Shown: piece by piece, positions 4,061 through 11,906 of the stretch
Numbering within the stretch: position 1 is the first letter of the stretch
Layout of the letters: each line of letters starts with the position of its first letter
Assembly: GCA_003218345.1 (NCBI GenBank)
Contig: QHNF01000013.1
Location: 1-12,043 of the forward strand
Length of the DNA stretch: 12,043 nt
Source of the DNA: Verrucomicrobiota bacterium
GTDB lineage: Bacteria > Verrucomicrobiota > Verrucomicrobiia > Chthoniobacterales > UBA10450
Direction: 5' to 3'
The notes under the pieces: model-generated
The model's input: the letters and a program-made list of their open reading frames with translations, nothing else
Database searches by the model: none
What the model was told of the DNA's origin: nothing
Translations under genes and position numbers: made by a program

Positions 4061-4088
4061 TTCAATTCTGATCTCTGTTTTCTGATTA
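4061..4088. repeat. Heptad repeat array at the 3' end of the secreted-protein gene
   Basis: Four units in 7-nt register: TTCAATT, CTGATCT, CTGTTTT, CTGATTA. On the minus strand the last unit contains the TAA stop codon (4086-4088) of the 563-residue secreted protein, so the array begins exactly at the gene end. It belongs to the set of 7-nt-period arrays scattered over the window. Confidence 0.6.
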
Positions 4089-5777
4089 CCGCGTCGCTTC
4101 TTCGTAGAGCTCTTTGATTTTCGTAGCGCCAGCGTTCTTATACCAGCAATTGAACAGGAGGATGTCGCCACTTCGGACGGCATTGAGTAGAGCAGTGTGA
4201 TCCTCAGGCCGATCACCATCAGGCGCCATCAGCACGCTGAATGCCTTCGGGTAAACCATTCGTGCGCCGGCTGGCGTCGAAGTCACCTTGTGATGCACGT
4301 AGGAGTTAAATGGTGCCGCGTAAGCAAAGTAACGCATCGATTCGTTTTCAGGAATTAGCAGGACATCGGGATACGCTTCCGCGACGGCCTTGAAAACGTT
4401 TGGACTAAGAGGACGACCTACCGTGGCCGTTGAATCCACATAAAAGAGCGTGCAGCCCCAGCGCTGTTTTGCGTACGCGATTTTATCTTTAAGAACCTGG
4501 GCCGCGTGCTCGTCATCGGCGGCTTGTTGGACTGGCTTGCCATGTACCATCACGATCTGTTGCGGACGAATGCACACACCTACGCTTAATCCTGGGGCAT
4601 GGAACTTTTTGAAATATTCGTCAATTGCGCTAGTTCGTCCATTCCCATCAAACTCCATTTCCGGTGCCAAAGTCGACGTCAGGCGAGGGTCACCGTAATA
4701 GCAGGATTCGAGAAACTCCTCTCCTTCCGGGTCCCAGATGATCATTCCCTGGGCATTAGCCTCCTGCAACATTTTGACGCTGCTATCGGCCAGTCTGAGC
4801 AACGCTTCGCGAAAAACGCTCTTGCCTCGCCCAGTTGTGATGTCGATCTTGCCCGAGTTCAGAATCCACCGGCGTGGATTGGTTGCTACGTTGATTCCCG
4901 AGCTGGCCAGGAAGATCGCGCCGATTGGACGACGGTCGGTCCAGTTTATTCGAAACGGATACTTCTCTGCATAGCGCCTCACAAGGTCGTCCGATAAATC
5001 TTGCACGCGCGAACCTGCTGGCCCAAAGCGCAGAGAAACATTGAAGGTTTTAGTGTCGCCCGGCTTTATATCGCGACAATTGACAATGAATGGATAGCTG
5101 GTTTGAGCCGACGGATTTGTCGTATATGGCACACTAACGGAGCACTCAAAATCATCGCTGCAAAAGTTGAGCGCGCCTGCGCCGAAATCGATAAGGACAA
5201 TTGGGGCCACAAACTGTGGGTCGGCGATGGATGGATACTGGTATAGCGGATGCAGAGCTCCTGTGAAGCCGAAGCCGAACATACCAGCTTCCAGCGTGCC
5301 GCCCGTCGGAGGGCTCGAAAAGTTCAGTTCCATTAAGCGAAGCGAGAGCTCATCAATACGTTCTCTGCCGGTGTTCAAAACCCGAACTCGCAGTATCAAC
5401 TTTTCGTCTTGTTTGCCATACGTGCAGGACACACGGCCCCAGGGATAACTCAGATCGATTGTGTCGCTCTGCTTATTCCGCTCCGCTGCCGACGATGGCG
5501 AACCGGTAAGAAGCGCATCAAGCACCGAGCGAAAAACAGATTTCCACGGCTGCAACTCTCCACTTTGGGCAGAACTTAGAAGCGATTGCCCGTTAAATAC
5601 GAGGGAATTGAGGCCCCGGTTTCCAATCGAGAAATTCAAACCTTGTCTTGGGGAAGAAGATGGATGTGCTGTCCTCGTCTGGGTATCTTGTGCTTGCGCA
5701 TTCGCTCGGCTTGTGACGGAGAAAATACCCAGCGCAAAAAGCATGCAAAAAGAGCGACGACACTTCTCACGTCTCAC
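4086..5777 (-). CDS. Secreted two-domain protein, possible glycoside hydrolase
   Basis: Exported protein of 563 residues; I do not recognise a named family. Residues 1-27 form a signal peptide (basic start, hydrophobic CMLFALGIFSV, ANA cleavage site at 25-27). Residues about 45-255 are beta-rich, resembling the N-terminal beta-sandwich of many glycosidases. Residues about 283-563 alternate strands and helices like a TIM barrel, with acidic strand ends: MIIWDPEGEEF (345-355), LFYVDST (444-450, D448) and LLIPENES (473-480, E477/E479). These are candidate active-site carboxylates, by inference. The location inside a polysaccharide operon suggests trimming, editing or release of the polymer in the periplasm or outside the cell. 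The GTG start is chosen because GAGAGGTGA lies 5' with its AGG core six nt before it; an ATG at codon 12 would shorten the signal peptide. Both gene ends lie in heptad repeats. Confidence 0.72.
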   Translation of the reverse strand: MRREKCRRSFCMLFALGIFSVTSRANAQAQDTQTRTAHPSSSPRQGLNFSIGNRGLNSLVFNGQSLLSSAQSGELQPWKSVFRSVLDALLTGSPSSAAERNKQSDTIDLSYPWGRVSCTYGKQDEKLILRVRVLNTGRERIDELSLRLMELNFSSPPTGGTLEAGMFGFGFTGALHPLYQYPSIADPQFVAPIVLIDFGAGALNFCSDDFECSVSVPYTTNPSAQTSYPFIVNCRDIKPGDTKTFNVSLRFGPAGSRVQDLSDDLVRRYAEKYPFRINWTDRRPIGAIFLASSGINVATNPRRWILNSGKIDITTGRGKSVFREALLRLADSSVKMLQEANAQGMIIWDPEGEEFLESCYYGDPRLTSTLAPEMEFDGNGRTSAIDEYFKKFHAPGLSVGVCIRPQQIVMVHGKPVQQAADDEHAAQVLKDKIAYAKQRWGCTLFYVDSTATVGRPLSPNVFKAVAEAYPDVLLIPENESMRYFAYAAPFNSYVHHKVTSTPAGARMVYPKAFSVLMAPDGDRPEDHTALLNAVRSGDILLFNCWYKNAGATKIKELYEEATR

Positions 5778-5795
5778 TTCTCACCTCTCACTTCT
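5761..5795. repeat. Heptad repeat array forming a gene junction
   Basis: Five near-perfect 7-nt units: CACTTCT, CACGTCT, CACTTCT, CACCTCT, CACTTCT (minus strand GTGAGAA-like). The array contains the TGA stop of the GT26 gene (5788-5790), the likely Shine-Dalgarno of the next gene and its GTG start (5775-5777). It continues into the first codons of the secreted protein. Confidence 0.85.
5781..5789 (-). promoter_or_regulatory. Ribosome binding site supplied by the heptad array
   Basis: Minus-strand GAGAGGTGA is close to the ideal anti-16S complement. Its AGG core (5784-5786) lies six nt before the GTG at 5775-5777, which decides the start of the secreted protein. The site overlaps the stop codon of the upstream GT26 gene, allowing translational coupling. 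Confidence 0.55.
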
Positions 5796-6534
5796 TCATC
5801 GGCGGCAAATTTTCGCCGTATTTCCAAATCAGCGAGGGAAGTTCGAGAGCCCCCGTGAGGCGGGGAATGAAGATGCGCGGCTGCGCAAGCAATCGCCAGA
5901 GCCAGCCGAGATAAAACCGGTCGACCCAATCGGGAATTGCAACCTGATCGCCCGTAATAAACCCGAGCGCGGCGCCGGTACAATGGATCGCCGGCCGATA
6001 AGACAACTTTTCACGTAGATAATATCCGAGCTTTTCCTGTGGCCCAGCGCCGATCGCAATCACCACGTGCGCCGGGCGACGTTGTTCAACGAGCGTAAGA
6101 AAATGTCGATCTTCGATTTCCAATCCGTAGTGCGGCGCGATATGGCACTGGTCGATCTTGACCTCAAATCCTTCATGGTGCGACCAAGCGAACAGTTTTT
6201 GCTGCGCGCGTTCGGTTGGCAGCACCCAGAAAACTTCTGCGCCCCCCTCGCGTTTCAGATTTCCGAGTAGGTGTTTTAGATATTTGAGGCCGGAAATGCG
6301 ATGGACTTTTCCACGCTGCAACAAACGACACACGACAACCATCAATCCGCTGTCAGCAATCGCAAGGTCGGCCGCCAGGACTGCCCGCCGATAGGCCTGA
6401 TCTCGCCGCAGCCGCACAAAACAGGTTCCGGATGGGGCCACCAATAAACCGCCATGGCGGAGCATTACGGAGACCGCTTCATCAACATCGCCGTTGAAGA
6501 ACGTGATCCCCAGAATCTGCCGGGTGGAAATCAT
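5788..6534 (-). CDS. WecG/TagA/CpsF-family (GT26) glycosyltransferase
   Basis: Membrane-associated glycosyltransferase of 248 residues, the usual length for family GT26. Members transfer the second sugar (for example ManNAc or ManNAcA) onto undecaprenyl-diphosphate-linked amino sugar. Visible elements are TFFNGDVDEAV (11-21) at the N-terminus; the core SGTCFVRLRRD (35-45) and LAADLAIADSGL (53-64), with D61 at the place of the family's proposed catalytic base; the HRISGLKYL segment (78-86); the strand HVVIAIGAGPQEK (156-168); and CTGAALGFITGD (185-196). The C-terminal basic and aromatic appendage, DRFYLGWLWRLLAQPRIF (205-222), mediates membrane contact in this family. The usual DGxG is DSGL here. 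It is the first gene of the minus-strand operon, divergent from the exosortase. No clear ribosome binding site precedes the ATG. Confidence 0.9.
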   Translation of the reverse strand: MISTRQILGITFFNGDVDEAVSVMLRHGGLLVAPSGTCFVRLRRDQAYRRAVLAADLAIADSGLMVVVCRLLQRGKVHRISGLKYLKHLLGNLKREGGAEVFWVLPTERAQQKLFAWSHHEGFEVKIDQCHIAPHYGLEIEDRHFLTLVEQRRPAHVVIAIGAGPQEKLGYYLREKLSYRPAIHCTGAALGFITGDQVAIPDWVDRFYLGWLWRLLAQPRIFIPRLTGALELPSLIWKYGENLPPMKK

Positions 6535-6711
6535 TGAAACAAATATCGAACATCCGACATCGAACGCCGAATATCGAACAGAAAGGATGAGTCACGATGC
6601 AAGATGCGAGCCGCGTTCTCTCTCAAGTAAGATTAACAACTTTTGCACAAAGATTCCCAATTCGCTTTGCGCCTAAATTTGGTAAGATGTCGATCCGTGC
6701 AAAATCTGGCA
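6535..6711. promoter_or_regulatory. Divergent intergenic region between EPS operon and exosortase
   Basis: About 177 bases separate the two divergent first genes, so promoters for both should lie here. I see no convincing -35/-10 pair on either strand and no sigma-54-type -24/-12 element. The left part is occupied by a heptad array. The exosortase reading frame is open leftward to a TTG at 6643, so part of this region could be coding if that start is used. Confidence 0.4.
6543..6584. repeat. Heptad repeat array upstream of the GT26 gene
   Basis: Six units in 7-nt register: ATATCGA, ACATCCG, ACATCGA, ACGCCGA, ATATCGA, ACAGAAA. The array begins eight bases upstream of the GT26 ATG and would lie in the 5' leader of the whole minus-strand operon. 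Confidence 0.75.
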
Positions 6712-8409
6712 ATGCCGCAAGCGTTCGGGACTGAAACTGCGCCGTTATCCCGTACTGATTCTTCAGTGCGACTTACACTGAGTTTTCTCTTTTTGGCTGC
6801 ACTGTGGTTTGTCCTTTGCAGGCAACTCAGCGGTGAATGGTCCGTCAACGAGCAATACAGCTTTGGATGGTTCGTGCCGTTTTTCGCTCTCTATCTTTTC
6901 TGGCTCCGCTGCCAGGATCGGCCGGAGCCGGCGGTCGGTGGTCAATGGTCAGTGATCAGTGGTCGGGGGTTGGTCGCCCTGGCAATCGGCCTCATAGCCC
7001 TTCTCTTGTTACTGCCGGTGCGGCTTTTTGAAATTGCGAATCCGGAGTGGCGACCGCTCGCCTGGATTCACACTGCAGTGGTCGTTACGCTCACTCTGCT
7101 ATTTATATGGTGCGCAGGCGGTGGACCGTGGCTCCGCCATTTTGCTTTCTCAATCGCATTCATTTTTGTCGCAGTGCCGTGGGTAACCCCAGTGGAAGCT
7201 CCCATTATCCAGGGCCTGATGCGCGCGCTTGCCCGCGTTGCCGCGGAGACCGTAATGCTACTTGGAATCCCTGCACACCTCGAGGGAAACCTCATTCGTG
7301 TGAGCAACGGACTTGTAGGCGTAAATGAAGCCTGCAGCGGGATCCGTTCATTGCAGACGTCGCTCATGATCGGCTTACTCTTCGGCGAACTAAAGCGACT
7401 TTCGATCTTGCGCCGCGGCGCGCTCATTGCGGGCGCTGTTGGCATTGCGCTCTTCGCTAATTTTCTACGCGCAGTTTTTCTGGTTCGGGTCGCAGCCACG
7501 AAAAATATCTCAGAGGTCACTCGGTGGCACGACATTGCTGGCTACACCATCGTCGCTCTTGTTTTTGTTGGCACTCTCGGCTTGGCGTATTTGCTCGGGA
7601 GATCGGAAATCAGAAGTCAGAAGTCAAACGTCACTAATCAATGGTCTGTCGCCAGTCGCCAGCCTCTAGTTTCCTATCTCGCGGCGGCGCTTTGCTGGCT
7701 CGTCATTGTAGAGATCGGAACGGCGGCATGGTATCGCCTTCACGAAAGCAATATTGTCAGCGGTCTACGTTGGAGTGTGCAATGGCCCGAGCAGGCGCCC
7801 AACTTTCACAAGCTGAAGATCGATGAAGAAATTCGCAGCGTCCTTCGTTTCGATCAGGGTGAGGCAGCAATCTGGGCGGTCACAACGCCGCCGAAAGCTT
7901 TTGAGGAGCCGGTGAAGTTCAACTCGTCGAGGCCGAACGACATTTCTTGTTTCTTATACCTGTTTCGCTGGAAGCCAGGCCGAAACAGCGCGCTGCTGGC
8001 AAACTTACACCGGCCGGACGTATGTTTGCCTGCAATCGGCTGGAGCGAAATCGCGGACACAGGCGTGCGCAATTATCCGGTGATCGGTTCGTTTCAGTTG
8101 CCGTTTCGTCATTTCGAGTTTCATCGCGCATTCGAAGATTCGAGCCCACAGACAGCGCACGCGTTTTATTGTTTGTGGGAAGATCGTGCGCCGCAATCTT
8201 CCGCTGCCGGAGCGAAATCGCCCTTAATGTCCGGAAGTCGTTCCGAATGGACACGCGCCGAACGCGTGCGCGCGGTGCTCGACGGACGCCGCCATCTGGG
8301 ACAGCAGGTAATCGAAATAGTGTTCATCAGCGACGAGCGAGTTTCGACGACGGACGCAGAATTGCGCCTAGCTGATTTGGTGCGTGATGTCGTCGTTTCA
8401 CGAAAGTAG
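6712..8409 (+). CDS. Exosortase with fused C-terminal EpsI domain
   Basis: Membrane transpeptidase-like enzyme predicted to recognise and cleave PEP-CTERM sorting signals. With the ATG at 6712 it has 565 residues. Residues about 20-300 form some eight hydrophobic helices carrying the exosortase catalytic motifs: NEACSGIRSL with C208, NFLRAVFLVR with R253, and RWHDIAGY with H273. After a polar linker and another hydrophobic segment (about 321-338), residues to the end form an EpsI-type periplasmic domain with the typical HRPDVCLPAIGW motif. Such fusions are known in exosortase systems. The start is uncertain: GTG at 6697 and TTG at 6643 are in frame, and none has a good Shine-Dalgarno; ATG was taken by default. 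Two 7-nt repeat arrays lie inside the coding region, in predicted inter-helix loops. The gene is divergent from the polysaccharide operon and upstream of a PEP-CTERM gene. Confidence 0.93.
   Translation: MPQAFGTETAPLSRTDSSVRLTLSFLFLAALWFVLCRQLSGEWSVNEQYSFGWFVPFFALYLFWLRCQDRPEPAVGGQWSVISGRGLVALAIGLIALLLLLPVRLFEIANPEWRPLAWIHTAVVVTLTLLFIWCAGGGPWLRHFAFSIAFIFVAVPWVTPVEAPIIQGLMRALARVAAETVMLLGIPAHLEGNLIRVSNGLVGVNEACSGIRSLQTSLMIGLLFGELKRLSILRRGALIAGAVGIALFANFLRAVFLVRVAATKNISEVTRWHDIAGYTIVALVFVGTLGLAYLLGRSEIRSQKSNVTNQWSVASRQPLVSYLAAALCWLVIVEIGTAAWYRLHESNIVSGLRWSVQWPEQAPNFHKLKIDEEIRSVLRFDQGEAAIWAVTTPPKAFEEPVKFNSSRPNDISCFLYLFRWKPGRNSALLANLHRPDVCLPAIGWSEIADTGVRNYPVIGSFQLPFRHFEFHRAFEDSSPQTAHAFYCLWEDRAPQSSAAGAKSPLMSGSRSEWTRAERVRAVLDGRRHLGQQVIEIVFISDERVSTTDAELRLADLVRDVVVSRK
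6933..6974. repeat. Heptad repeat array inside the exosortase gene (first)
   Basis: Six units in 7-nt register: GGTCGGT, GGTCAAT, GGTCAGT, GATCAGT, GGTCGGG, GGTTGGT. The 42 bases equal 14 codons, so the reading frame is kept. They encode roughly VGGQWSVISGRGLV (residues 75-88), a polar loop between two membrane helices. Confidence 0.75.
7600..7662. repeat. Heptad repeat array inside the exosortase gene (second)
   Basis: Nine units in 7-nt register, starting AGATCGG, AAATCAG, AAGTCAG, AAGTCAA, ACGTCAC and ending with two TCGCCAG units. The 63 bases equal 21 codons and keep the frame. They encode a polar linker (about residues 296-317) between the exosortase core and the EpsI part. It shares CAATGGTC, hence the residues QWSV, with the first array. 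Confidence 0.75.
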
Positions 8410-8413
8410 CGCA

Positions 8414-8427
8414 AGCGCGTCCGCGCT
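8414..8427. other. Short GC-rich palindrome after the exosortase stop
   Basis: AGCGCG-TC-CGCGCT is a perfect 6-bp inverted repeat beginning five bases after the stop codon. The two-base loop is too tight for an ideal hairpin and no T-run follows, so it is at best a weak transcript-end structure. Confidence 0.3.
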
Positions 8428-8432
8428 GAGTA

Positions 8433-8520
8433 ACCACGAATTCACAGGAATCGACGCGAATCAGCCGAAAACTGCTCCTGAAACGAATTCTTATGAATTT
8501 GTGTTCATTCGTGTCCACCT
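8433..8520. repeat. Dispersed-type element with inverted 10-nt-period arms
   Basis: The left arm (8433-8462) reads as ACCACGAATT, CACAGGAATC, GACGCGAATC. The right arm, read on the minus strand from about 8516 to 8484, gives GGACACGAAT, GAACACAAAT, TCATAAGAAT. Both arms have a 10-nt period with a CGAAT/GAAT core and face each other around a central spacer. No credible coding sequence lies here. It fills most of the gap between exosortase and the PEP-CTERM gene. Confidence 0.55.
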
Positions 8521-8524
8521 GTCG

Positions 8525-8548
8525 CGCCGTAGCTTTGGCGAAGGCGGC
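8525..8548. repeat. REP-like interspersed repeat, copy A
   Basis: The unit is CGCCGTAGCT-TTGG-CGAAGGCGG, whose ends CGCC and GGCG are complementary. Nearly the same unit occurs at 9453-9474 with GTA in the middle, and a related one at 11992-12017. It lies directly after the 10-nt-period element, upstream of the PEP-CTERM gene. Confidence 0.65.
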
Positions 8549-8635
8549 TTCGTGATTGGAAGCCTTGGAAAAAAATCCGAAAAATGTCTTGCCCTGTAAA
8601 AGGGAATTGCTAGAAGAGAGCGCAATCTCAAACTT

Positions 8636-8642
8636 GGGAGGG
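8636..8642 (+). promoter_or_regulatory. Strong Shine-Dalgarno upstream of the PEP-CTERM gene
   Basis: GGGAGGG is the best ribosome binding site on the plus strand of the window. Nine bases after it, in frame with the PEP-CTERM protein, lies ATT (8652-8654). The nearest downstream in-frame TTG (8667) is 24 bases away, and no ATG or GTG lies near, so the site argues for the ATT start. Confidence 0.5.
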
Positions 8643-8651
8643 AATACGCGA

Positions 8652-9494
8652 ATTTGTAAGAAAATCTTGTCGGCCAATTTCGCGACTGCGCATAGGAGTC
8701 GCAACAGGCCAGTCTCCTTCCGGAGATTTGATTGGCTTTTCGGTGGATTGGCAGGCGCGTTAATGCTTGCCGGCACTTTCGCACCGAAAGCCGATGCGGA
8801 TGTAATAGTCTATTTCAATTTCGAAGGTAATACCTTTACCTCGGTTCCTGCGCCAGGCCCTGGAGGACTGTACCCGCTTCTGCAGAACCAGACGATTATC
8901 AACTCCCCCACCGATCCGTTTCCGCCTGGGGGTCTCCTTGTTACTCCAGGAGTCGGCACCATACTCAATGAACTCGTCCCTGACGTCCCGACGACGAATA
9001 CGGCTCTAGAACTCAGGGGTAATACCCAAGGCACGGCCAACATGAATTGCTTCCGGTTCGGCGTGAACACCACGGGGTACGCGCAGGCGTCGCTTAGTTT
9101 TGCGCTTCAGAGCCTTGGAAACGGAACACAATTCACCCAAATGGAAGTCCGGTACAGCACGAATGGCGGCGCTAACTTTACGGTTACTCCTGAGGGCCTG
9201 GTTACCATAAACCGAGACGGCCTTTACCACATTTACACTTTTAACATAAGCGGAGCTGGTAACACAGCCAACGCCTTGATCGAAGTCTGTTTCACTGGGA
9301 GCACAAGCAACAACGCAGCTAATCATACTTATCTCGATAATCTCCAAATTAGCGCAGTCGTTCCAGAGCCCGCTACCGTCGCCAGCGGCCTGCTTGGCGT
9401 TATGGGACTCTGCTGGTATCAACGCCGCCGGTTAATTCGCTCTCTCCTACCACGCCGTAGCTGTACGAAGGCGGGTCGTTGGCGCCGCACTTAG
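8652..9494 (+). CDS. PEP-CTERM sorting-domain protein
   Basis: Exported protein predicted to be a substrate of the exosortase encoded upstream. From an ATT start it has 280 residues. It opens CKKIL, then a basic stretch, a hydrophobic helix (about 28-43) and a KADA cleavage site (to about 49). The mature part is beta-rich, Gly/Thr/Asn-rich, and has two cysteines in MNCFRF and EVCFTG that could pair; it resembles extracellular beta-sandwich modules. The C-terminus is a textbook sorting signal: VPEPAT (237-242), a hydrophobic span, then QRRR (257-260). A 20-residue basic tail follows, partly encoded by an interspersed repeat. The start is the weak point: no ATG precedes the signal peptide; ATT at 8652 has a strong Shine-Dalgarno, while TTG codons at 8556, 8607 and 8667 are alternatives. 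The molecular role beyond surface sorting is unknown. Confidence 0.85.
   Translation: MCKKILSANFATAHRSRNRPVSFRRFDWLFGGLAGALMLAGTFAPKADADVIVYFNFEGNTFTSVPAPGPGGLYPLLQNQTIINSPTDPFPPGGLLVTPGVGTILNELVPDVPTTNTALELRGNTQGTANMNCFRFGVNTTGYAQASLSFALQSLGNGTQFTQMEVRYSTNGGANFTVTPEGLVTINRDGLYHIYTFNISGAGNTANALIEVCFTGSTSNNAANHTYLDNLQISAVVPEPATVASGLLGVMGLCWYQRRRLIRSLLPRRSCTKAGRWRRT
9453..9474. repeat. REP-like interspersed repeat, copy B, in the PEP-CTERM 3' end
   Basis: CGCCGTAGCT-GTA-CGAAGGCGG matches copy A (8525-8548) outside the central three to four bases. It is translated in the PEP-CTERM frame as about RRSCTKAG, and the stop codon follows about 17 bases later. Confidence 0.7.
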
Positions 9495-9545
9495 GTGGGG
9501 GCCGCAAACGCACTTCGTCTTGTAAAATCTCGCGCGACAGCCGAA

Positions 9546-11459
9546 ATGTCTCTCGTGGTTAGACGGCCGTCGCCCGCCCGCACACGCAAGGACAATTTTG
9601 GTCTAACTCCACCTGAGGAAGTTCGCGCGCAACGCGTCCGACTATTCTTGTTCCTCGGCGTGGTGGCTATCTGTGCGCTCGGCATTGCGCTCTACTTTGG
9701 CGCACCCCGGCTGGGGAGAGCAACCAAGGCGTGGCAGTCGCGTCGCCTCGCGCGTGAGGCGTTCGCCTTAATCGAGCAAAAGCAATGGAGCGAGGCCGAA
9801 GCCAAAGCGCGCGATGCGTACCTGCTGCGCCCAACTGAACCCGAGGCCTGGCGTGCAATCGCGCGTCTGCTCTCGCGCGCGGGTCAGGGAAGCGCCGCGC
9901 TGGAATGGTGGAAAAAACTCGATGACCAACATCGCCTCACGATGGAGGACCGGCGCGACTTTGCGGGTGCTGCGCTTGCGGCCGGTGAATTAACGACGGC
10001 CGCGACACAAATCGATGCGCTACTTGCACAGCGCACGAGTCTCTTGCCGGTCGATACAGTGCTTGCCGGTCAACTTGCCGTTCGTCAGAGCGATGCAGTT
10101 CTCGCCGTGGATTATGCCGAACGCGCGCTCGCTAATAAGCGCGCAAAACCGTACGACCGTCTCTCCGCCGCGACCCTCGTCCTCTCGGTCACCACGCCCG
10201 ATTCGCAGCCATACATCAGTGCTTGGAAGCAAATTGAAGATTTGGCGCGCGACCCAAGGAATGCAGCGTCCCTCGAAGCGCTCATTTATCTCGCGCGTGA
10301 GCAGGCGCGAGCGCCCTCGCCTTCACCGGGTAGCAACACTTCCATTTCGCTCGACACTGGTTCCACGCCACAACTAACACCTGCAACACAAGCCGGCGAT
10401 GCTCCGTCGCTTAACCTCGGCGCTGCAGCGCAACCCGCCTCAGCCGGGCGGACCATGAGCGCCATTGAAGTGGCAGACGCTCTTGAAAATCACCCTGATG
10501 GCCGCTCTTATCACAAACTGCTGGCACTTGAACTTCGTGTTCAGAACGATCCAGCCCTCGCCGATGAATACGTTACACAAGCTATCAAGCGCTTCGGAAG
10601 CGGAGACGACGAAACGCTCGCTGCGCTGGCAGTATGGCTCAATAATCTCGGCCGGCCCGCGAAAACGTTGGAAGTGTTGCCTCCGGAGCGAGCGTTACAA
10701 CGCCAGGACCTGTTTCTCCAATACATTAACGCGCTCGCCGCGCTTCAGCGCTGGGGTGACGTCAAAGATCTGCTGACGAGCGAACGCTTTCCGGTCGAGC
10801 CGGTCCTGCAACATATGTATCTTGCCACTGCACAGACACACCTAGGAGCGCTAACTGCTGCAACTAACGAGTGGCACCGCGCTCTGGAAGCTGCTAATAC
10901 AGCGGAAAAGTTGTTGGGCCTGGCAAGTTATGCCGAGCAAAACGACGCCATCGACATAGCTGATGCCGCCTACGGCGAAGCGATCAAGCTCGCGCCTAAA
11001 AACCGGGCGGGCTATGCCGGTCAGCTTCGCGTGGCACTGGCAGGCGGGCATACGGCTCGCGCGCAGACTGTCGCAGCGGAGATCGTCCGCCTATGGCCCG
11101 ATGACGCGGCGGCCCGCAATCAGGACGCTTATCTGCGATTGCTGCTCGGTGCATCGGATGGCGAAGCGGAAGCGACAGAGCGAGAAGCTCAAGTTCTTGT
11201 CGCAAAGGAACCGTGGAACTGGTTAGCTCGGGCGACACTCGGGCTGGCACGTCTTCGCCTTGGCCAGAACAAGGATGCACTGGCAGCATTCCGCGATGTG
11301 CGGGCAACGGGCGCCGAACCTCCTGGCGCGCTCGCAGTGCGCGCCGCGATTCTGGCGGCAAACAGCTACGAAGAAGGCGCTCGAGGCGATGCGCGCAACC
11401 TTGGAGCCAAACCGCTTCTGCCCGAAGAACGCGCCCTGATCGCTCCGTTGTTGCGATGA
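9546..11459 (+). CDS. Membrane-anchored TPR protein
   Basis: Protein of 637 residues from the ATG at 9546. A cytoplasmic basic N-terminus (1-32) precedes one membrane helix, LFLFLGVVAICALGIALYF (33-51), and the rest should lie outside the cytoplasm. Alpha-helical repeats begin about residue 65 (REAFALIEQKQWSEAEAKA, with LRPTEPEAWRAIARLLSRAG) and resume to the end. Examples are ASYAEQNDAIDIADAAYGEA and WLARATLGLARLRLGQNKDA, typical TPR patterns. A low-complexity linker rich in Ser, Pro, Thr and Ala (about 254-303) separates two helical blocks. TPR proteins often accompany PEP-CTERM/exopolysaccharide systems as assembly scaffolds; that role is inferred here. The reading frame extends to a GTG (9495) touching the previous stop codon, giving 654 residues; neither start has a good ribosome binding site. 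Confidence 0.85.
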   Translation: MSLVVRRPSPARTRKDNFGLTPPEEVRAQRVRLFLFLGVVAICALGIALYFGAPRLGRATKAWQSRRLAREAFALIEQKQWSEAEAKARDAYLLRPTEPEAWRAIARLLSRAGQGSAALEWWKKLDDQHRLTMEDRRDFAGAALAAGELTTAATQIDALLAQRTSLLPVDTVLAGQLAVRQSDAVLAVDYAERALANKRAKPYDRLSAATLVLSVTTPDSQPYISAWKQIEDLARDPRNAASLEALIYLAREQARAPSPSPGSNTSISLDTGSTPQLTPATQAGDAPSLNLGAAAQPASAGRTMSAIEVADALENHPDGRSYHKLLALELRVQNDPALADEYVTQAIKRFGSGDDETLAALAVWLNNLGRPAKTLEVLPPERALQRQDLFLQYINALAALQRWGDVKDLLTSERFPVEPVLQHMYLATAQTHLGALTAATNEWHRALEAANTAEKLLGLASYAEQNDAIDIADAAYGEAIKLAPKNRAGYAGQLRVALAGGHTARAQTVAAEIVRLWPDDAAARNQDAYLRLLLGASDGEAEATEREAQVLVAKEPWNWLARATLGLARLRLGQNKDALAAFRDVRATGAEPPGALAVRAAILAANSYEEGARGDARNLGAKPLLPEERALIAPLLR

Positions 11460-11467
11460 CCATACCT

Positions 11468-11509
11468 TTCACGATTCAGCGCTTCAAAACTCTAACGATT
11501 TAGCGATTG
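11468..11509. repeat. Weak heptad repeat array after the TPR gene
   Basis: Units in 7-nt register: TTCACGA, TTCAGCG, CTTCAAA, ACTCTAA, CGATTTA, GCGATTG. The period is less regular than elsewhere, but the last units (CGATTTAGCGATT) resemble, inverted, the CAATCGCTAAT core of the array at 11872-11906. It lies between the TPR stop and the small downstream gene. Confidence 0.5.
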
Positions 11510-11543
11510 ACCCTGTCGGGATTTTCCGTCAGGCTCAAAGGGT

Positions 11544-11822
11544 ATGCGACTGTTGGTTGAAATATTCATTATTGGAGGACTGATCTATCTTGGATGGGAA
11601 CAGCCCTTTAAAGAACAGTTGGATCAGGTGCGTGCGAAAGTGACAGCGAAACAAGCTCAGGTTGCTCCGCAGGAGTTGACGCGTAGGCCTGCACCAGCGC
11701 CGAGAATAGCGCCGGACATGATACACGATCCAAGCGTACCGCGTGGCGCATGGAGGCTGGATCCGAATCATCGATCGACTCTGGATGCTCCGGCACACGG
11801 TTCACCGTCGCCGCATTATTGA
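11544..11822 (+). CDS. Small single-pass membrane protein, function unknown
   Basis: Predicted protein of 92 residues that I do not recognise. It starts with a hydrophobic helix (MRLLVEIFIIGGLIYLGW, 1-18) that could be an anchor or uncleaved signal. A short charged helix follows (KEQLDQVRAKVTAKQAQ, about 23-39), then a tail rich in Pro, Arg, Ala and His without clear structure. The ribosome binding site is poor: AAAGGG almost touches the ATG and an AGG lies ten bases upstream. The gene follows the TPR gene on the same strand after 84 bases and may share its transcript. I call it real because of the well-formed N-terminal helix; the antisense frames here show no such pattern. A role in the exosortase/TPR module is only a guess from position. 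Confidence 0.55.
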   Translation: MRLLVEIFIIGGLIYLGWEQPFKEQLDQVRAKVTAKQAQVAPQELTRRPAPAPRIAPDMIHDPSVPRGAWRLDPNHRSTLDAPAHGSPSPHY

Positions 11823-11871
11823 GAACGACGCACTTTCTCATCCTGCATGGGTAGGACACCACACAACGCGC

Positions 11872-11906
11872 TTCATTCACCAATCGCTAATCACCATTCA
11901 CCTGCG
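11872..11906. repeat. Heptad repeat array downstream of the small gene
   Basis: Five units in 7-nt register: TTCATTC, ACCAATC, GCTAATC, ACCATTC, ACCTGCG. The shared core is AATC/ATTC at the unit end. It lies 49 bases after the stop codon of the small membrane protein. Confidence 0.65.

Follow-up and report, generated by a model that had tools for sequence, protein, structure and literature searches.

The 12,043-nucleotide window analysed here, which is the whole of contig QHNF01000013.1 in the draft genome of a Verrucomicrobiota bacterium (GCA_003218345.1; 2.39 Mb in 475 contigs, 81% complete), carries short tandem arrays of degenerate 7-nt units (heptads), two of which lie in frame within an exosortase gene. 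Tandem heptads as a repeat class are already known; new here are the two in-frame arrays and the finding that the same exosortase loops, as well as loops of aconitase and dihydroorotase, hold other heptad unit families in relatives from the same genus. The arrays within genes occupy loops that are variable among otherwise conserved enzymes (exosortase, aconitase, dihydroorotase and a PrmC-type methyltransferase), and what differs between relatives is the unit family, not the place. The explanation to which we give about an even chance is that these are degenerate heptads of a known bacterial class, which may grow by slippage and whose coding copies would be replaced as short loop alleles.

A first-pass annotation of the window had described seven heptad arrays, each with its own consensus, and had proposed a shared generating process behind the constant period. 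We compared the best lag-7 match count of each array with 200 order-2 Markov shuffles of the window, and three of the seven were never reached. The five CACTTCT units at 5761–5795 (24/28 lag-7 matches; Tandem Repeats Finder (TRF) score 56) lie at the junction of a WecG-type gene (5788–6534, minus strand) and an open reading frame (ORF) at 4086–5777 on the same strand. The other two are inside the open frame of the exosortase gene (6643–8409, plus strand; Exosortase_EpsH domain at amino acids 49–317; PF09721, E 2.9e-42; TIGR02602, E 2.7e-30), a coding position on which the first-pass annotation was silent. The GGTCAGT array at 6933–6974 on the plus strand (26/35 matches) forms exosortase site 1, at about amino acids 97–111 inside the EpsH domain, and the array at 7600–7662, also on the plus strand (39/56 matches), in which AAGTCAG drifts to GGTCTGT and GTCGCCA, forms site 2, at about amino acids 320–340 directly behind the domain. 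The unit sequences given earlier for the clear arrays agree with our calls (GTGAGAA being CACTTCT read on the minus strand). A fourth array, of the ACATCGA/TTCGATG family at 6543–6584 between the divergent WecG-type and exosortase genes, is borderline by itself (21/35 matches, reached by 7.5% of shuffles) and is backed by three relatives (L059, L060 and L063), which carry a similar array between the same genes.

The remaining three of the seven are, taken alone, indistinguishable from chance. Weak AATCAGA-like heptads on the minus strand at 4061–4088, between the flippase gene and the stop of the 4086–5777 frame (TRF score 30), gave 13/21 matches, equalled in 86% of shuffles, and weak TCACCAA heptads at 11872–11906, after an ORF at 11544–11822 (TRF score 31), gave 16/28, equalled in 75%. 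The irregular repeat at 11468–11509, after the stop of the tetratricopeptide repeat (TPR) gene, had to be dropped as a 7-nt array: it showed no lag-7 excess (13/35, equalled in 100% of shuffles), its lag-8 fraction was higher than its lag-7 fraction, and it was the only one of the seven places at which TRF, run with a minimum score of 30, reported no 7-nt array. A scan of lags marked a lag-24 segment at 11461–11508. Across the window, the scan of lags 2–30 returned five segments at lag 7 and four at lag 14; lags 2–6 and 8–13 had none, and longer lags gave a small number of weak segments.

The preference for seven extends to the source genome. In 60 of its 475 contigs (242,380 unmasked bases) we counted 19 arrays of period 7, six of period 6 and at most five of every other period up to 30, and a Markov-3 null of the same genome yielded no period-7 arrays. 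For the clear arrays, neither were other periods equally common in the genome spectrum nor did shuffled windows equal the signal, and the idea of a shared process behind the period, as first proposed, is partly supported. This and the following comparisons used draft genomes with one assembly per species and with parts of the genome masked. Outside the genome, matches to a four-unit AAGTCAG pattern included, among those listed, records titled Acidobacteria, cyanobacteria, Nitrospirae, Bacteroidetes, deltaproteobacteria and others. In 80 seed loci from many phyla (537,805 masked bases, the mask covering the seed array and 150 bases to either side), period 7 accounted for 141 arrays, period 8 for 17 and period 9 for 16, and at least one further period-7 array was present in 48 of the 80; as these loci were picked for a heptad array, the counts do not represent a genome average. 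One of them, from Galbibacter (L095), contains a very long TTTAAGG array (score 210) that looks telomere-like by eye.

An origin limited to the genus had been suggested by 24 period-7 arrays in 218 kb from the genus against one in 160 kb from seven outside genomes. This was overturned by a search of the phylum, in which matches in other families (G039 and G070 among them) point to a patchy rather than genus-limited distribution. As to gene context, a home-made and rough gene finder placed 22 of 47 arrays in coding and 25 in noncoding sequence, where 88% of the sequence was called coding; 12 of the 22 belong to the two exosortase sites, and one that was called coding (L059, 12119) is probably intergenic.

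The comparison of orthologous loci, which the first-pass annotation had recommended, showed that the exosortase places hold other heptads, REP-like inserts or no repeat in relatives. At site 1, some orthologues from the genus carry AAATCCC, AATCCGA, AATTCGA or AGTCAGA heptads, and L038, L040, L043 and relatives outside the genus have no repeat. At site 2, relatives carry AGTCAGA, AATCCGC, TTTCTAC and mixtures thereof, REP-like inserts, or no repeat, and in one pair with 95% identical flanks (G010/G032) a heptad array in one genome corresponds to a hairpin-type insert in the other. The REP-like inserts, which were named by eye, sit in frame at heptad loops, namely at exosortase site 2 of L031, L032, L043 and L044 and at the aconitase loop of L360. 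Further arrays were found in loops of aconitase, dihydroorotase, a PrmC-type methyltransferase and a glycosyltransferase, and the gene names were confirmed. Judging from their variability, the loops that carry arrays are probably surface loops.

Aconitase and dihydroorotase allowed the loops to be followed through the genus, with 29 of 30 aconitase loci anchored, families labelled by a simple rule or by hand, and trees built from single genes. By hand labels, 24 of the 29 aconitase loops hold heptads (AGTCAGA in nine, AACTCTC in nine, AATCAAC in four, single kinds in two) and five do not; the automatic rule gave 23 of 29, and 27 of 30 for dihydroorotase. On the loop-free aconitase tree, the automatic labels required 17 changes, against a shuffled mean of 16.85, when the absence of heptads counted as a label of its own (29 rows), and 12 against 11.7 when the 23 heptad rows were taken alone, so no fewer than after shuffling. 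For dihydroorotase the numbers were 15 and 17.3 (30 rows, P 0.10). Two genomes with 2.8% divergence in the aconitase gene, G015 and G029, have loops of different families. Within the large families, loop length is fixed: in aconitase 42 nt for AGTCAGA (8/8) and AATCAAC (4/4) and 36 nt for AACTCTC (9/9), in dihydroorotase 48 nt for AATCCGA (9/9) and 45 nt for AGTCAGA (7/7) and AACTCTC (8/8). The two genes of one genome often carry unlike families. Among 15 anchored loops from outside the genus, six, of which five belong to the same family, reached 15/21 or more lag-7 matches, four were compact and five were longer without strong periodicity. An empty and a filled site are seen within one other genus, where G042 has a compact 18-nt aconitase loop and G439 a heptad loop (unit AAATCTC) that is 24 nt longer.

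Sequence close to the loops follows the loop. When all pairs were compared, the flank residual went with the unit family at 0–30 nt in both genes (P 0.001 and 0 of 1000), flanks of like family resembling each other more than the remainder of the gene predicts, and no family signal was seen at 30–60 nt (P 0.44 and 0.80). Where a serine precedes the aconitase array, AGTCAGA loops encode it by AGC or AGT and the other loops by TCC or TCG; one AACTCTC row (L349) has phenylalanine in its place. Four further arrays could be compared between G015 and G029, in flanks that are 92.7–97.4% identical. Three of equal length lie in open frames of 314–333 amino acids and are near-unchanged, have a variant unit moved (array C) or differ by two substitutions (D). 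The fourth (B) differs in length by exactly one 7-nt unit, and although it lies within a 233-amino-acid open stretch it is likely noncoding, because a coding copy would be expected to show a frame shift.

The units themselves are diverse and biased. The 21 units of the source genome resemble one another more than random 7-mers of that genome do. Three exact tandem copies of RTCNGAR occur in 118 of 387 genomes of the phylum and in 32 of 35 of the genus, and the mirror pattern in 38 (a hand count) and none, respectively, with 1443 RTCNGAR against 180 mirror matches. Mirror controls of ATCCGAA and GTCAGAR gave zero matches, those of CTCAACT, which is near-identical when read backwards, and of ATCAACN did not. 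A genome of the same order (G385) has 34 matches to the mirror pattern and none to RTCNGAR, apparently its own unit family. A small comparison of short stretches from genomes rich and poor in RTCNGAR found no period-7 arrays in the 100 kb sampled from G185, which has 36 matches, and the stretches of the G297 group consisted of N only. In 32 arrays of at least eight units from other phyla, mean unit identity fell from 5.45/7 at lag 1 to 4.27 at lag 4, and in the three genus arrays of sufficient length from 4.77 to 3.16 with lag, as would be expected if units are copied from their neighbours. No unit phase was protected within the arrays, where phases were uniform and phase heterogeneity was not above simulation; this makes a fixed recognition core less likely. 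Inverted partners (score of at least 12, no more than 150 bases away) were found for 4 of 21 arrays of the source genome, 4 of 26 of the genus and 66 of 281 of other phyla, with 1.3–5.8% in random regions; hairpins belong to a minority of arrays only.

Under the explanation by slippage and replacement of loop alleles, slippage or misalignment in 7-nt steps while DNA is synthesised would lengthen, shorten and homogenise the arrays, and no core would need to be recognised; such steps fit the decay with lag and the single 7-nt length difference. Coding arrays would not be remade slip by slip, since a 7-nt step taken alone would disrupt the reading frame; instead, a small number of loop alleles, each an array with a very short flank, may be replaced as blocks between lineages via short-tract recombination, or be copied from similar arrays elsewhere. 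Among exchange models, short-tract allele replacement appears most likely and copying from arrays of the same genome comes second, the test of the latter having been mixed. A number of observations weigh against this explanation. In the aconitase tree, good support is limited to 11 of the 26 inner branches, and each tree represents one gene. Several families share one loop length, so that length singles out just AACTCTC in aconitase and AATCCGA in dihydroorotase; in the latter gene, lengths of 45, 48 and 45 nt occur within the small AATCCGC group. The flank signal at 0–30 nt may in part be the array edge extending into neighbouring codons, of which the serine codons before the aconitase array are an example, and dihydroorotase shows a weak signal at 60–120 nt as well (P 0.029, hand labels). 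In eight sister pairs chosen by hand, two of which set a heptad loop against one without heptads, differences were not generally in excess near the loop (pooled 9.6% within 30 nt and 10.9% beyond 400 nt; 1 of 60 in G006/G027). Unit-wise length change rests on the one case of array B, and slippage alone accounts neither for coding loops of fixed length nor for the bias in units. Import of long flanks as a general rule was not supported, since imported flanks should often raise the differences beside the loops and the sister pairs show no such pile-up; the pair G010/G032 (21/180 differences within 90 nt, 24/610 at 90–400 nt) does not settle the matter, because its differences are high again beyond 400 nt (78/662).

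The absence of a near-loop excess would also be compatible with pure in-place slippage with a preference for 7 nt, in which the apparent exchange of coding arrays reflects convergence and selection on loop length. This possibility, which we place well below an even chance, would further account for the lag decay, the one 7-nt length difference and the uniform phases; the empty and filled aconitase loops of G042 and G439 suggest that arrays can arise anew, and 42-nt loops without heptads exist in G048 and G055. It is harder to reconcile with fixed lengths within families that are scattered over the trees, and with related units at separate loci of one genome. The latter similarity would follow if arrays template each other within a genome, the nascent strand jumping to another heptad array, copying units in register and returning, so that the period is inherited by mutual copying. 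Such templating, which we consider rather unlikely, is favoured by the nine genomes with AACTCTC aconitase loops, which are near-devoid of AGTCAGA arrays elsewhere (none in eight, one in the ninth, against 0 to 15 in 20 others, P 0.0009), and by the AGTCAGA matches elsewhere in eight genomes with AGTCAGA loops (4.6 against 1.9 in 21 others, P 0.05), but no such link holds for AACTCTC (2.9 against 2.65, P 0.41), the aconitase and dihydroorotase families of one genome are often unlike, the counts were copied by hand with overlapping matches of one array counted repeatedly, and the genomes are related to each other. A further reading, doubtful in our judgement, is that all heptad arrays within a genome belong to a single set whose members exchange sequence, in which unrelated loci, including in-frame enzyme loops, would be overwritten in register from each other or from other species in tracts barely longer than the array; as only arrays of equal period could copy each other, seven would stay, inherited rather than re-invented at each locus. 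We regard as improbable that a conserved DNA- or RNA-binding protein keeps the arrays by recognising a heptad core such as TCA/TGA, as suggested for other heptads: the bias towards RTCNGAR over its mirror and the inverted partners of some arrays would agree with it, and the unprotected phases, the many different units in the source genome and the change of family at a fixed site would not. Chance is the least probable reading, for although three of the seven window arrays do not exceed shuffles alone, it is refuted for the clear arrays by the three that no shuffle reached and by the genome-wide period spectrum.

The arrays share with the prokaryotic heptanucleotide repeats their 7-nt units (in three window arrays and the genome), the over-representation of seven, a scattered occurrence among species, abundance between genes and the lack of a clear function; tandem heptamers were the most abundant tandem repeats between genes in 7006 prokaryotic genomes in 2018, without a clear clue to function (PMC6344855), and 7 nt is the most abundant unit class of long simple sequence repeats (Mrazek, Guo and Shah 2007, via PMC4679880). 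Runs are longer than expected here too, in the genome against the Markov null and in the three window arrays, although the published test concerns exact repeats and our arrays are degenerate. They differ from that class, as described there, in this degeneracy and in the different families at orthologous sites of conserved coding genes. Polymerase contact length has been suggested as the cause of seven in the same sources (PMC6344855/PMC4679880), and nothing measured here explains the step size.

Narrower systems share some traits. The GGGNATC heptamers of Xanthomonas and Nostoc likewise occupy gaps between the same genes in related species, vary in length and sequence and include some inverted pairs, but are one G-rich family with quadruplex potential, whereas here many non-G-rich families occur per genome and also within genes (PMC4692102). 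The TAACTGA direct repeats of Beggiatoaceae, cyanobacteria and Bacteroidetes are also common to distant phyla, intergenic and of unexplained origin; they have a single dominant unit, with related heptamers rarely repeated (PMC4679880), and TAACTGA, its rotations and its complement are absent from the 21 units in the 60 of 475 contigs covered. The four-heptad elements and class 3 sites of Geobacter metallireducens are tandem runs of four or five heptads, in genes as well as between them, and the MTYCTGA unit matches the AGTCAGA family on the other strand; there, unlike here, they are interpreted as regulatory elements (PMC2700814), and the protected core positions of regulator sites are lacking in our arrays. 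Replacement of a repeat class in a fixed loop has its closest precedent in the P6b region of the Nostoc trnL intron, which is structurally limited, contains 7-nt repeats and has had its class replaced whole several times on the tree (PMC4476775). That case concerns an RNA loop with two classes and one-way change, and ours protein loops with at least four families and no inferred direction. Judging by titles and abstract starts within one literature collection, we found no published account of heptads switching in protein loops.

Genes that tolerate in-frame repeats are also known from the Rickettsia palindromic elements, which are long palindromes and not tandem heptads. Nor do our arrays have the inverted-repeat stem that is the main feature of REP/BIME elements, since just 4 of 21 in the source genome have an inverted partner; the REP-like inserts are separate sequences at the same loops.

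Conserved enzyme genes with loops that differ in heptad family among close relatives provide replacement events for which the flanks serve as a control, so that data can separate slippage from copying between arrays and from the import of short tracts. The same variable loops with wholly different repeat sequence offer a handle on the origin of heptads, and sequence within heptad loops need not track the species tree.

The window as a whole codes for a polysaccharide locus with two glycosyltransferases, a flippase, the WecG-type transferase, the exosortase, a PEP-CTERM-like protein and the TPR protein, which had weak hits only. The ORF at 4086–5777 on the minus strand encodes a 563-amino-acid protein of this locus that had no Pfam or NCBIfam matches at E 0.001. 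The PEP-CTERM-like protein, whose family hits were weak too, lies beside the exosortase at 8556–9494. A pair of similar short stretches around GCCGTAGCT...GAAGGCGG, spotted by eye at 8521–8560 and 9447–9475, is perhaps another dispersed element.

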